Below, piece after piece: positions 15,554 to 19,585 of a stretch of DNA of 64,000 nt. The notes under the pieces were generated by a model that searched no databases, had not been told where the DNA came from, and saw nothing but the letters and a program-made list of their open reading frames with translations. The first letter of the stretch is position 1; each line of letters starts with the position of its first letter. The stretch is from Elioraea rosea (GTDB lineage: Bacteria > Pseudomonadota > Alphaproteobacteria > Acetobacterales > Acetobacteraceae): the NCBI RefSeq assembly GCF_007644105.1, contig NZ_VFAC01000022.1, forward strand, positions 1 to 64,000, read 5' to 3'. Both the position numbers and the translations under genes were made by a program.

Positions 15554-16870
15554 TCAGGCGAGCAGCCGCTCGAGGATCGCCGCCTTGTCGAGCTCGTGCC
15601 GCTCCCCGCCGCGGCGGCGCTTGATCTCGGCCCGGCCTTCCTTGGCACCGCGGGGCCCCACGATCACCTGCCAGGGCAGGCCGATCAGGTCCATGTCGGC
15701 GAACTTCACGCCGGCGCGCTCGTCCCGGTCGTCGTACAACACCTCGGTTCCGGCCTCGCGCAGCGCGGCGTAGATCTCGCCCGCGAGCGCATCCGCCGCC
15801 GCATCGCCGGGCTTGAGGTTGATCAGCCCGACGCGGAAGGGGGCGACGCTCTCCGGCCAGATGATGCCGGCCTCGTCGTGGCTCGCCTCGATGATCGCGC
15901 CAACGAGGCGGGAGACGCCGATGCCGTAGCTTCCCATCTCCGGATGGACGGGCTTTCCGTCCGGCCCCTGCACGCTGACGTCCATGGGCTTGGAGTAGGT
16001 GGTGCCAAAGTGGAAGATGTGGCCCACCTCGATACCGCGCGCCTCCAGCCGGTCACCGTCCGCGAGTGCGCCGAAGGCAATCGGGTCGTGCTTCTCGTCG
16101 GTCGCGGCGTAGAGCGTGGTCCAGGAATCGACAATCGGCTGCAGGTCGCTCTCGTAATCCAGCGCCTCGCCGAGGATGTCGCGCTCCACCAGCTCGCGGT
16201 GGACGAAGACCTGGCTCTCGCCGGTCTCGGCCAGGATAACGAACTCGTGGGAGAGATCGCCGCCGATCGGCCCGGAATCGGCGCGCATCGGGATCGCCTT
16301 CAGCCCGAGCCGCGCGAAGGTGCGGAGGTAGGCCACGAACATCCTGTTGTAGCTCCGCCGCGCGCCGGCTGCATCGAGATCGAAGGAGTAGGCGTCCTTC
16401 ATCAGGAACTCGCGCCCGCGCATCACGCCGAAGCGCGGCCGCACCTCGTCACGGAACTTCCACTGGATGTGGTAGAGCGTCATCGGCAGGTCACGGTAGC
16501 TCCGCACAGAGGCGCGGAAGATGTCGGTGACCATCTCCTCGTTCGTCGGCCCGTAGAGCAGCTCGCGCTCGTGCCGGTCGATGATGCGCAGCATCTCCTT
16601 GCCGTAGTCGTCATAGCGGCCGCTCTCCTTCCAGAGCTCGGCGGGCTGGAGGGTCGGCATCAGCAGCTCTTGGCAGCCGGCGGCGTCCTGCTCCTCGCGC
16701 ACGATGCGCGCGATATTGGAGAGAACGCGGTGGCCGAGCGGCAGCCAGGAGTAGATGCCGGCGGTCTGCTGGCGGATCAGGCCGGCGCGCAGCATCAGCC
16801 GGTGCGAGACGATCTGCGCCTCGGCCGGGTTCTCCTTCAGCGTCGGCAGGAAGTAGCGGGACAGGCGCAT
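15554..16870 (-). CDS. proS: Prolyl-tRNA synthetase, short alphaproteobacterial type
   Basis: ProS charges tRNA-Pro. The 438-residue product has class II motifs (motif 2 in [20 protein letters not shown], motif 3 around [14 protein letters not shown]) and a C-terminal anticodon-binding domain. The approximately 180-residue editing insert of the E. coli-type enzyme between motifs 2 and 3 is absent, as is usual in alphaproteobacteria. Mischarged Ala-tRNA-Pro would then have to be cleared by a free-standing editing protein, which is not in this window. It begins the proS-lolC-lolD-dnaE series. Confidence 0.96.
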
Positions 16871-17346: not shown

Positions 17347-17430
17347 TCGGCAACTTTCTATCGCTTTGCTGCACTGCAACGCACGATCGTCACCGCTAGC
17401 CTATGGACGCAGGCTTATCATTCGGCTAAC

Positions 17431-17467
17431 AAGAAAAAGGCCGCGCGCCCCGAAAGGCAGCGCGGCC
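17431..17467 (-). terminator. Rho-independent terminator
   Basis: On the minus strand an 8-bp stem GGCCGCGC/GCGCGGCC with a 13-nt loop is followed immediately by TTTTTCTT. The plus-strand side has no T-run. It would end transcripts coming from DUF1467/rnj and, further upstream, the nuo operon, or from the candidate small RNA immediately upstream. Confidence 0.85.
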
Positions 17468-17530
17468 CAAGTTTAGGGAGGAAACGCCAGTCACACGGCA
17501 GGAAGAGGACACCCCTCTTCCTGCCGTTGA
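17431..17530 (-). ncRNA. Candidate small RNA (hairpin, CCUCCC linker, terminator)
   Basis: In the 337-bp gap between DUF1467 and the small secreted protein, the minus strand encodes three elements. The first is a perfect 13-bp stem with a 5-nt loop (arms at 17514-17526 and 17496-17508, CGGCAGGAAGAGG). The second is a 28-nt unpaired linker containing UUUCCUCCCUAAACUUG. The third is the terminator at 17431-17467. A stable 5' hairpin, a single-stranded anti-Shine-Dalgarno-like CCUCCC and a terminator is the design of several alphaproteobacterial trans-acting small RNAs. TTGATG-N17-AAGAAT just upstream is only a weak promoter match. The alternative is a structured 3' untranslated region of the DUF1467 mRNA. 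Confidence 0.5.
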
Positions 17531-17683
17531 TTCTTATCGGGCTGGCTTGCCGCATCAAAGCGGATTCGCCCGGAAATTCGGCAGTATTTCCTCGGTCCGG
17601 ACGTGACTTGCCCAATTCATCGGCACAATGCCCGGAGTTTGGTCACACGCGGCCTTCGCGCAGGGCATTCCCACCCCGACGGG

Positions 17684-17932
17684 TCAGCCAGCCTCCATCG
17701 CCCGGAAGCTGACGAGGTCGTTCTCGATGACGAGCCAGATGCCGAACCAGATCACCGCTGCGACGAGGGTGGTGACGAGCACCTTGCGCAGGAGCAACGG
17801 CCTCTCCGGCGCACCTCGGAAATGCTCCGGCGTCTCGGGGTCGACCACGGGCTTCGTCCAGAACGGCAGGACGGCGAAAAGCGTCAGCCACCAGACGAGG
17901 ATGTAGACGACGAGGCCGGTGAACCAGGTCAT
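17684..17932 (-). CDS. DUF1467 family small membrane protein
   Basis: This is an 82-residue protein with two predicted membrane helices (about residues 5-25 and 50-68) joined by a short polar loop containing KPVVDPETPEHFRGAP. It matches the DUF1467 family, found next to rnj or proS in many alphaproteobacteria. Function is unknown. It begins 3 bp after the rnj stop, so it is probably co-translated with it. Confidence 0.85.
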   Translation of the reverse strand: MTWFTGLVVYILVWWLTLFAVLPFWTKPVVDPETPEHFRGAPERPLLLRKVLVTTLVAAVIWFGIWLVIENDLVSFRAMEAG

Positions 17933-17935
17933 CGT

Positions 17936-19585
17936 CTAGACCCTGAGAACGTGCACGGAAACGACCGGTCGCTTGGCGGGCGCGGCCCGGCGCACCGCGC
18001 TCCGCAGCGCCGCCGCGGCGGCATCGCGCACCGCCTCGTCGTCGCGCAGCACCGTGTGCGAAAGCCCGGCGATCGCGCTGCCGAGGTCGCGCACCAGGAG
18101 CCGCGGGCCAACCTCGTCGTCGGTGAAGAGCCCGGGCGCGGAGATCACCGGCTCGCCAACAAGCCGCCCGACGCGATCCACCGCGAGGGAGGCGACAACG
18201 AGGCCGCTCTCCAGCATCCGGCGCCGCTCGGCCAGGACGGGACCGTCTACCGGCAGCAGCCTTACGCCGTCCACCGCGAGGCGCCCGGCCGGCACGCTCT
18301 CCACCACCTCCGGCGCGCCTGGCGCGAGGCGGAGCATGTCGCCATCCTCGATGAGGTGCGGGATCGCGCCGAGTTCGCGCGCGAGCGCGGCATGCTCGCT
18401 CATGTGCCGCCACTCGCCATGCACCGGAACGACATGCTTCGGCTTCACGAGACGATAGAGGCGGCGAAGCTCGTCGCGCGCAGGGTGGCCGGAGACATGC
18501 ACCATGTGGTCGTGCTCGGTCATCACCGTCACGCCGCGGCGGGCAAGCGCATCCTGAACCATCAGGATCGCCCGTTCGTTCCCCGGAATGACACGCGAGG
18601 AGTAGATCACCGTGTCGCCCTCGCCGAGCGACACGTTCGGGTGCGTGTCTGCGGCGATTCGCGACAGGGCGCTCCTCGGCTCGCCCTGGCTTCCGGCGCA
18701 GACGAACAGGACGGAATCGTCTGGCAGGTAGCCTGCCTCCTCCTCCTCGACGAAGGCCGGAAGCGTGTTGAGATAGCCCGTCTCGCGCGCAGCGGCGGCG
18801 ATGTTCCGAAGCGACCGGCCGACCAGCGCGACACTGCGCCCCGCAGCTTCCGCGGCCAGCGCGATGCTCTCGATGCGCGCGATGTTGGAGGAGAAGCAGG
18901 TGAAGGCGACGCGCCCGCGGAGCCCGCGAACGAGCGCGGCAAGGGTGCGGCGCACATCGGCCTCCGAGCCGGAATGCCCCTCCACCATCGCGTTGGTGCT
19001 GTCGCAGACGAGGACGTCCACGCCCTGCTCGCCCACGGCGGCGAGCGCGGCCTCGTCGGTGCGGGGGCCGACGAGCGGATCGGGGTCGAGCTTCCAGTCG
19101 CCCGTGTGCAGCACGCGCCCGTGCGGCGTGTCGATCACGACCGCCTGCGCCTCGGGGATCGAGTGGGCCATCGAAATGAACCGGAGCGAGAACGGCCCGA
19201 GTTCGAGCGATGCGCCTGGGGCGAACTCGTGCAGCGGCACCTGGCCCGCGAGGCCTCGCTCGCCGAGCTTCCGGCGAAGCACGGCGGCGGCGAAGGGCGT
19301 GGCGTAGACGGGGCATTGCAGCTGCGGCCAGAGCCAGGCGACGGCGCCGATGTGGTCCTCATGCGCGTGGGTGATGACGAGCCCGACGAGCGCGTCCCGC
19401 CTCTCGGCGATGAAGGACGGGTCGGGCACCATGATGTCGAGATCGGGCCGCGCGCTCTCGGCGAAGCCGAGGCCGCAATCGATGGCGAGCCATGCGCCAT
19501 CGCAGCCATAGAGGTTCAGGTTCATGCCGATCTCGCCCGTGCCGCCTAGCGGCAGGAAGACGAGACCCTCCTGGCGATGGATCAT
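17936..19585 (-). CDS. rnj: Ribonuclease J
   Basis: RNase J is a 5'-3' exonuclease and endonuclease of the metallo-beta-lactamase/beta-CASP family, used in mRNA turnover and rRNA maturation. The 549-residue product has the zinc motif HAHEDHIG, the GTGEIGMN N-terminal signature, the beta-CASP motif region ([12 protein letters not shown] and [10 protein letters not shown]) and a C-terminal domain. The ATG at 19585 overlaps the coaX stop as ATGA. Confidence 0.94.

Follow-up and report, generated by a model that had tools for sequence, protein, structure and literature searches.

Small RNAs of the alpha-r8 family are present in most Alphaproteobacteria, and only MmgR and SisA of the family are known to have been studied; a recent account calls redundancy among alpha-r8 siblings an open question (PMC12559287). 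The element was discovered in 2005 by comparative analysis and was described as occurring in several copies per genome, with no specific neighbour genes (PMC1273637). As described for Caulobacter, the plan of the family consists of a weak hairpin followed by an unpaired 10-nt UUUCCUCCCU and a terminator, in an RNA that is bound by Hfq (PMC12559287). The known members, SisA of Caulobacter and MmgR of Sinorhizobium, are both Hfq-bound and trans-acting; the 10-mer is identical in SisA-D and MmgR, and in SisA it pairs, with Hfq, to a 5' UTR ahead of the start codon, blocks ribosome-binding sites and represses mRNAs (PMC12559287). In Sinorhizobium, MmgR limits the storage of polyhydroxybutyrate (PMC7143759). 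No paper on Acetobacteraceae sRNAs with anti-Shine-Dalgarno motifs was found in the collection searched.

Here, we describe a locus in a 64-kb stretch of DNA from Elioraea rosea, the whole of which is referred to as the window. Its minus strand probably carries, at 17524-17431, an independently transcribed trans-acting alpha-r8 sRNA that represents a second lineage of the family, fixed between rnj-DUF1467 and proS (Table 1). Judged by its sequence, the RNA is a member of the known alpha-r8 (MmgR/suhB, RF00519) family. With the whole window searched, the full RF00519 model (positions 1-77) is matched with 44.0 bits and an E-value of 9e-6, only 3 bits above the gathering cut-off of 41 bits, and the core GGCGUUUCCUCCCUAAACUU is the same as the RF00519 family core. 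An earlier note, made from the letters alone, had recognised no clear match to any named family, and this was wrong, given that the Rfam cut-off is passed and the 10-mer is exact. The terminator (17438-17468) and U-rich tail of alpha-r8 RNAs are also in place; the FGase gene that adjoins members of the SisA-orthologue group is not adjacent, the neighbours being DUF1467 and a small secreted-type protein. SorY (RF02651) shares with the window copy a 5' hairpin, a linker and a ACUUGGGCCG-type terminator, but its model scores 31.5 bits against a cut-off of 111 and it was rejected, as were RcsR1 and other Rfam families with scores far under their cut-offs. Among the matches listed, which covered the best of the related families only, no alpha-r15/AbcR model reached the Rfam cut-off.

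Table 1. Coordinates of the predicted sRNA, its parts and its neighbours in the window.
Feature	Position	Strand	Basis
proS, prolyl-tRNA synthetase, downstream syntenic gene	15554..16870	-	synteny
Small secreted-type protein, 144 aa	16945..17379	-	homologues at the same locus in other families
Predicted sRNA, ~94 nt, alpha-r8/MmgR (RF00519), rnj-DUF1467-proS lineage	17431..17524	-	Rfam, fold and R1 scores
Intrinsic terminator stem-loop, GC-rich, then UUUUCUU to 17431	17438..17468	-	fold; compensatory changes
Unpaired linker UUUCCUCCCUAAACUUG	17484-17468	-	sequence and fold
alpha-r8 core 10-mer UUUCCUCCCU, anti-Shine-Dalgarno seed, exact	17475..17484	-	sequence, Rfam alignment
Weak alpha-r8 hairpin equivalent GCC(GUGUGACU)GGC	17486..17499	-	fold, orthologue comparison
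Hairpin 1 (5' hairpin), 14 perfect bp, 5-nt loop	17495..17527	-	fold; covariation
-10 element AAGAAT	17530..17535	-	footprint with conserved A2 and T6, a sigma-70 pattern
-35 element TTGATG, 17-nt spacer to -10	17553..17558	-	footprint in 95 orthologues
DUF1467 protein (PF07330), upstream syntenic gene	17684..17932	-	Pfam
rnj, ribonuclease J, upstream syntenic gene	17936..19585	-	synteny

The non-coding gap that holds the sRNA comprises 17380-17683, provided that the downstream ORF begins at its TTG. Within it, the minus-strand hairpin, the unpaired CCUCCC linker and the terminator lie where the earlier note had placed them, in sequence as well as in the predicted fold. The hairpin is real and perfect, and is slightly longer than the 13 bp first given for 17496-17526 (Table 1). 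The 100 nt of the minus strand fold with -55.3 kcal/mol against -36.0 +/- 3.2 kcal/mol for 200 dinucleotide shuffles (z = -6.0), none of which was equally stable. The 5' arm of hairpin 1 is purine-rich (GGAAGAGG) and the 3' arm pyrimidine-rich, the latter with 86% pyrimidine over the orthologues. A second CU-rich stretch lies in a stem, and only one CCUCCC is exposed in the predicted fold; the 10-mer is accessible, with a mean predicted unpaired probability of 0.77 in the window and 0.78 over 95 orthologues. The equivalent of the weak alpha-r8 hairpin forms with a mean probability of 0.27 over the same 95 orthologues, and its GCC/GGC sequence is retained in nearly all of them. In the minimum-energy fold of the window strain, hairpin 1 takes the GCC and displaces the weak hairpin just before the 10-mer.

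Further, the pairing of hairpin 1 is maintained through sequence change. Over 95 distinct orthologues, the arms within one RNA pair at 9.38 of 10 positions, compared to 8.59 +/- 0.06 for arms exchanged between orthologues (at most 8.80 in 2000 trials). In alignment A1, both partners have changed in 24 cells, compared to 10.2 for shuffles; both controls retain the phylogenetic relatedness of the sequences. The arm-swap test was used in place of MAFFT pair counts since the alignment of the 95 equal-length segments left the loop ungapped, and such counts would mislead. Variants of the paired arms that keep the pairing include CAGGAAGAGG/CCUCUUCCUG, CAGAGAGAGG/CCUCUCUCUG and UAGAAUGAAG/CUUCAUUCUG. 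Covariation in the 17496-17526 stem had been suggested as a check on the sRNA, and the pairing and the paired changes exceed the arm-swap and the shuffle controls, respectively. The terminator stem also carries compensatory changes among the orthologues. Hairpin 1 is a lineage-specific addition to the alpha-r8 plan.

The genome to which the window belongs has two RF00519 copies above the cut-off, further matches of 13-25 bits being left out of this count. The second copy, L001, is canonical (65.4 bits) and adjoins a GNAT gene and the gene for FGase (N-formylglutamate amidohydrolase, PF05013), at 0.74 kb; this is also the context reported for SisA (PMC12559287). The window copy has in common with the canonical FGase-linked alpha-r8 RNAs the same exact core, which is unpaired, a GC-rich terminator with its U tail and a full-length match to the model. 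In contrast to them, it resides at rnj-DUF1467-proS and not beside FGase, coexists with the FGase-linked L001, adds a covarying 5' hairpin and has an invariant GUGUGACUGGCG block in place of the usual short weak hairpin.

The separation of the two lineages is also seen in the scores of R1, a covariance model of the window lineage built from 20 orthologues picked by similarity. R1 matches of 55-112 bits occur in 97 of 150 Acetobacteraceae genomes, with no R1 match at all in about 30 of the 150, and the canonical and other alpha-r8 copies form a separate score group at about 30-49 bits. Across 289 genomes of the class, five of them from Acetobacteraceae, only the window copy scored above 53.5 bits, which is the best R1 score outside Acetobacteraceae. 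An exact 21-nt search of named genomes returned loci that are overwhelmingly of the Acetobacteraceae type (Roseomonas and relatives, Acidocella, Acidiphilium, Belnapia, Elioraea). DNA comparison found the sRNA conserved in 40 of 60 Acetobacteraceae genomes, and this conservation, together with an Rfam gathering score reached over 64 kb, points to more than chance. A 30-nt block is near-invariant in 20 genomes of 20 genera. The invariance of GUGUGACUGGCGUUUCCUCCC in loci L117 and above is by construction, since these were selected by a pattern that spans it; it is shown independently by the 20 similarity-chosen orthologues. The linker is thus conserved well beyond the Elioraea rosea strain, and its lack of conservation, which the earlier note had named as a finding that would speak against an sRNA, clearly does not hold. 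The RF00519 score near threshold might suggest a non-functional relic, with a terminator and a chance hairpin around an Rfam-like core, but the near-invariant block, the synteny, the compensatory changes and the conserved promoter all contradict such a relic and leave it scarcely credible.

Around the sRNA, rnj, DUF1467 or proS is on the expected side at 164 of 166 matched places (redundancy included). The 144-aa protein has no match in Pfam or NCBIfam, and by the Acetobacteraceae comparison it stands beside the sRNA only in the genus of the window and near relatives, e.g. Elioraea. Given that in several other families homologues of 28-40% identity occupy the same locus, with the alpha-r8 gene on one side and proS on the other, it looks to be an old neighbour that was lost or diverged in many genera.

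The upstream alignment of the 95 distinct orthologues reveals TTG(N)(N)C followed about 18 nt on by nAnnnT, the A and T columns of the -10 footprint carrying 1.8 bits each. A T-rich patch further upstream is also conserved, and most other upstream positions examined hold little information. The conserved TTG...C and A...T positions are the strongest of the sigma-70 -35 and -10 elements. A simple consensus promoter scan gave no hit at the sRNA, and the promoter is visible only by the comparative footprint. With the -10 element at 17535-17530, the 5' end is predicted at about 17524, in agreement with the position near 17525 proposed earlier, and the 3' end is taken from the terminator. The discrete trans-acting sRNA with a CCUCCC anti-Shine-Dalgarno seed that the earlier note had put forward is thereby supported, with a predicted size of ~94 nt, a promoter footprint of its own and a terminator.

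The main alternative considered there was a structured 3' UTR of the rnj-DUF1467 mRNA, from which the sRNA would at most be a processing product. The sRNA is on the strand of rnj-DUF1467, with the hairpin 157 nt past the DUF1467 stop, and is always 3' of rnj or DUF1467 wherever these are seen; moreover, the discrete RNAs of SisA and MmgR speak for the family and not for the window copy. However, a conserved sigma-70-like -35/-10 pair lies directly upstream at a near-fixed distance, and some copies directly follow rnj with no DUF1467 detected. Further, at four loci of other families (L269, L282, L287 and L291) the sRNA is found 750-1100 nt beyond DUF1467, a distance too great for a simple 3' UTR. 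The footprint and these distant loci argue for an independent gene, and together with the copies in which no DUF1467 neighbour was detected they render the 3' UTR unlikely.

Outside Acetobacteraceae, the sampled alpha-r8 loci were found with R1 and the sample is biased accordingly; among the 73 R1-found loci, 45 are linked to FGase and 11, one of them the window, are at the DUF1467/proS locus. Copies at the latter locus often read CGCCUGGUGGCGAUUCCUCCCUAAACU, a form of the 10-mer whose first U is replaced by A, and in many of them a 5' hairpin precedes the core. A search with the A-variant core brought additional loci, and when the search set out from the DUF1467 genes of 30 genomes that represent different families, the core was downstream on the same strand in seven (one being the window and another, L316, weak). 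In total, about 12 families besides Acetobacteraceae have a divergent alpha-r8 at the rnj/DUF1467/proS locus, which would make it a second ancestral alpha-r8 locus. Several of the proS-locus members outside Acetobacteraceae score under the Rfam cut-off and are missed by the Rfam model. Outside Acetobacteraceae, proS-locus copies typically have the core GGCGAUUCCUCCCU, with A in place of the first U of the 10-mer, as seen in L275-L294, and hence not every alpha-r8-like RNA has the exact 10-mer. A second lineage that is known by its locus and its added hairpin provides a defined sibling for comparison with the FGase-linked copy.

Caulobacter likewise has further alpha-r8 paralogues, SisB-D, which lie at other loci, share the core and are transcribed from promoters of their own (PMC12559287). 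AbcR1 and AbcR2 (alpha-r15) resemble the window copy in their CU-rich anti-Shine-Dalgarno motifs, which are unpaired; they bind Hfq and have many importer targets (PMC7143759). They expose two motifs in three stem-loops, and in S. meliloti they form a tandem near lsrB. The window copy, in contrast, exposes one core, and the best Rfam family for the stretch is RF00519. A different role is suggested by Caulobacter CrfA, which is described as a sponge whose G/A-rich stem-loop traps SisA-D (PMC12559287). The 5' arm of the window copy is likewise G/A-rich and resembles a ribosome-binding site, and either this arm or the whole RNA could act as a decoy that titrates CU-rich sRNAs, including the FGase-linked sibling. 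Yet the orthologues hold their purine arm in a stem of ~10 bp formed with the pyrimidine arm of the same RNA. What they expose without variation is the CU-rich core, which is the pattern of targeting sRNAs and not of CrfA; a sponge is therefore very improbable.

For a targeting sRNA, the likely job, judging from the core, is the repression of mRNAs with the ribosome-binding site GGGAGGAA. A sigma-70-type promoter would start transcription just ahead of the lineage-added 5' hairpin, RNA polymerase would halt at the GC-rich terminator, and the U tail of the terminator may load Hfq, the gene for which is present in the genome. The unpaired UUUCCUCCCU core could then pair with GGGAGGAA-type ribosome-binding sites and block the translation of several mRNAs, with the periplasmic solute-binding proteins of nutrient importers as the probable target group.

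GGGAGGAA, which is complementary to most of the core, occurs 30 times in the genome with an ATG 3-9 nt downstream, compared to once for the reversed control. Six of the 30 sites precede genes for TctC-type solute-binding proteins (PF03401), of which the genome has 55, and one a DctP protein. For the control AAGGAGG-N3-9-ATG, one of 70 sites precedes a TctC gene (Fisher p 0.003 against six of 30), an enrichment that is post hoc, as the target class was noticed after the search; related TctC genes could also share a leader by descent. In two other genera, seven of the 30 sites sampled lie before TctC genes, as a raw count, and further sites precede ABC or TAXI-type binding proteins. Since the core is common to the canonical copy L001, the targets are not assignable to the window sRNA alone. 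TctC-type leaders with a GGGAGGAA-type ribosome-binding site, for instance GGGAGGAAAC, are candidate targets and offer a lead. If true, the link to solute-binding proteins would tie alpha-r8 to nutrient uptake in bacteria with large sets of binding proteins.

A broader proposal, which we regard as tentative and rather doubtful, is that of a second, separately inherited alpha-r8 subfamily at rnj-DUF1467-proS-lolC in Alphaproteobacteria. Its Acetobacteraceae form would combine the covarying 5' hairpin with a latent second seed in the pyrimidine arm and a specialised repression of the solute-binding proteins of tripartite and ABC importers.

Finally, the number and arrangement of such RNAs vary among genomes. 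Two Acetobacteraceae genomes (G062 and G137) have 5-8 RF00519 matches each at E <= 0.001, so that the family has expanded locally, and in other genomes of a single family (L076, L253 and L260) three tandem alpha-r8 copies lie within ~0.6 kb near GNAT/FGase genes. In the genome of the window, two loci 14 kb apart on contig C2 (L003:1501-1578 and L004:1501-1579) carry near-copies of CGUCUCCCAGACGUGAAGCCUCCCUGUAUCACUUG followed by GC-rich terminators. Both match RF00519 weakly (25 bits), L003 is also SorX-like (19 bits), and they are possibly a separate pair of CCUCCC-bearing sRNAs.
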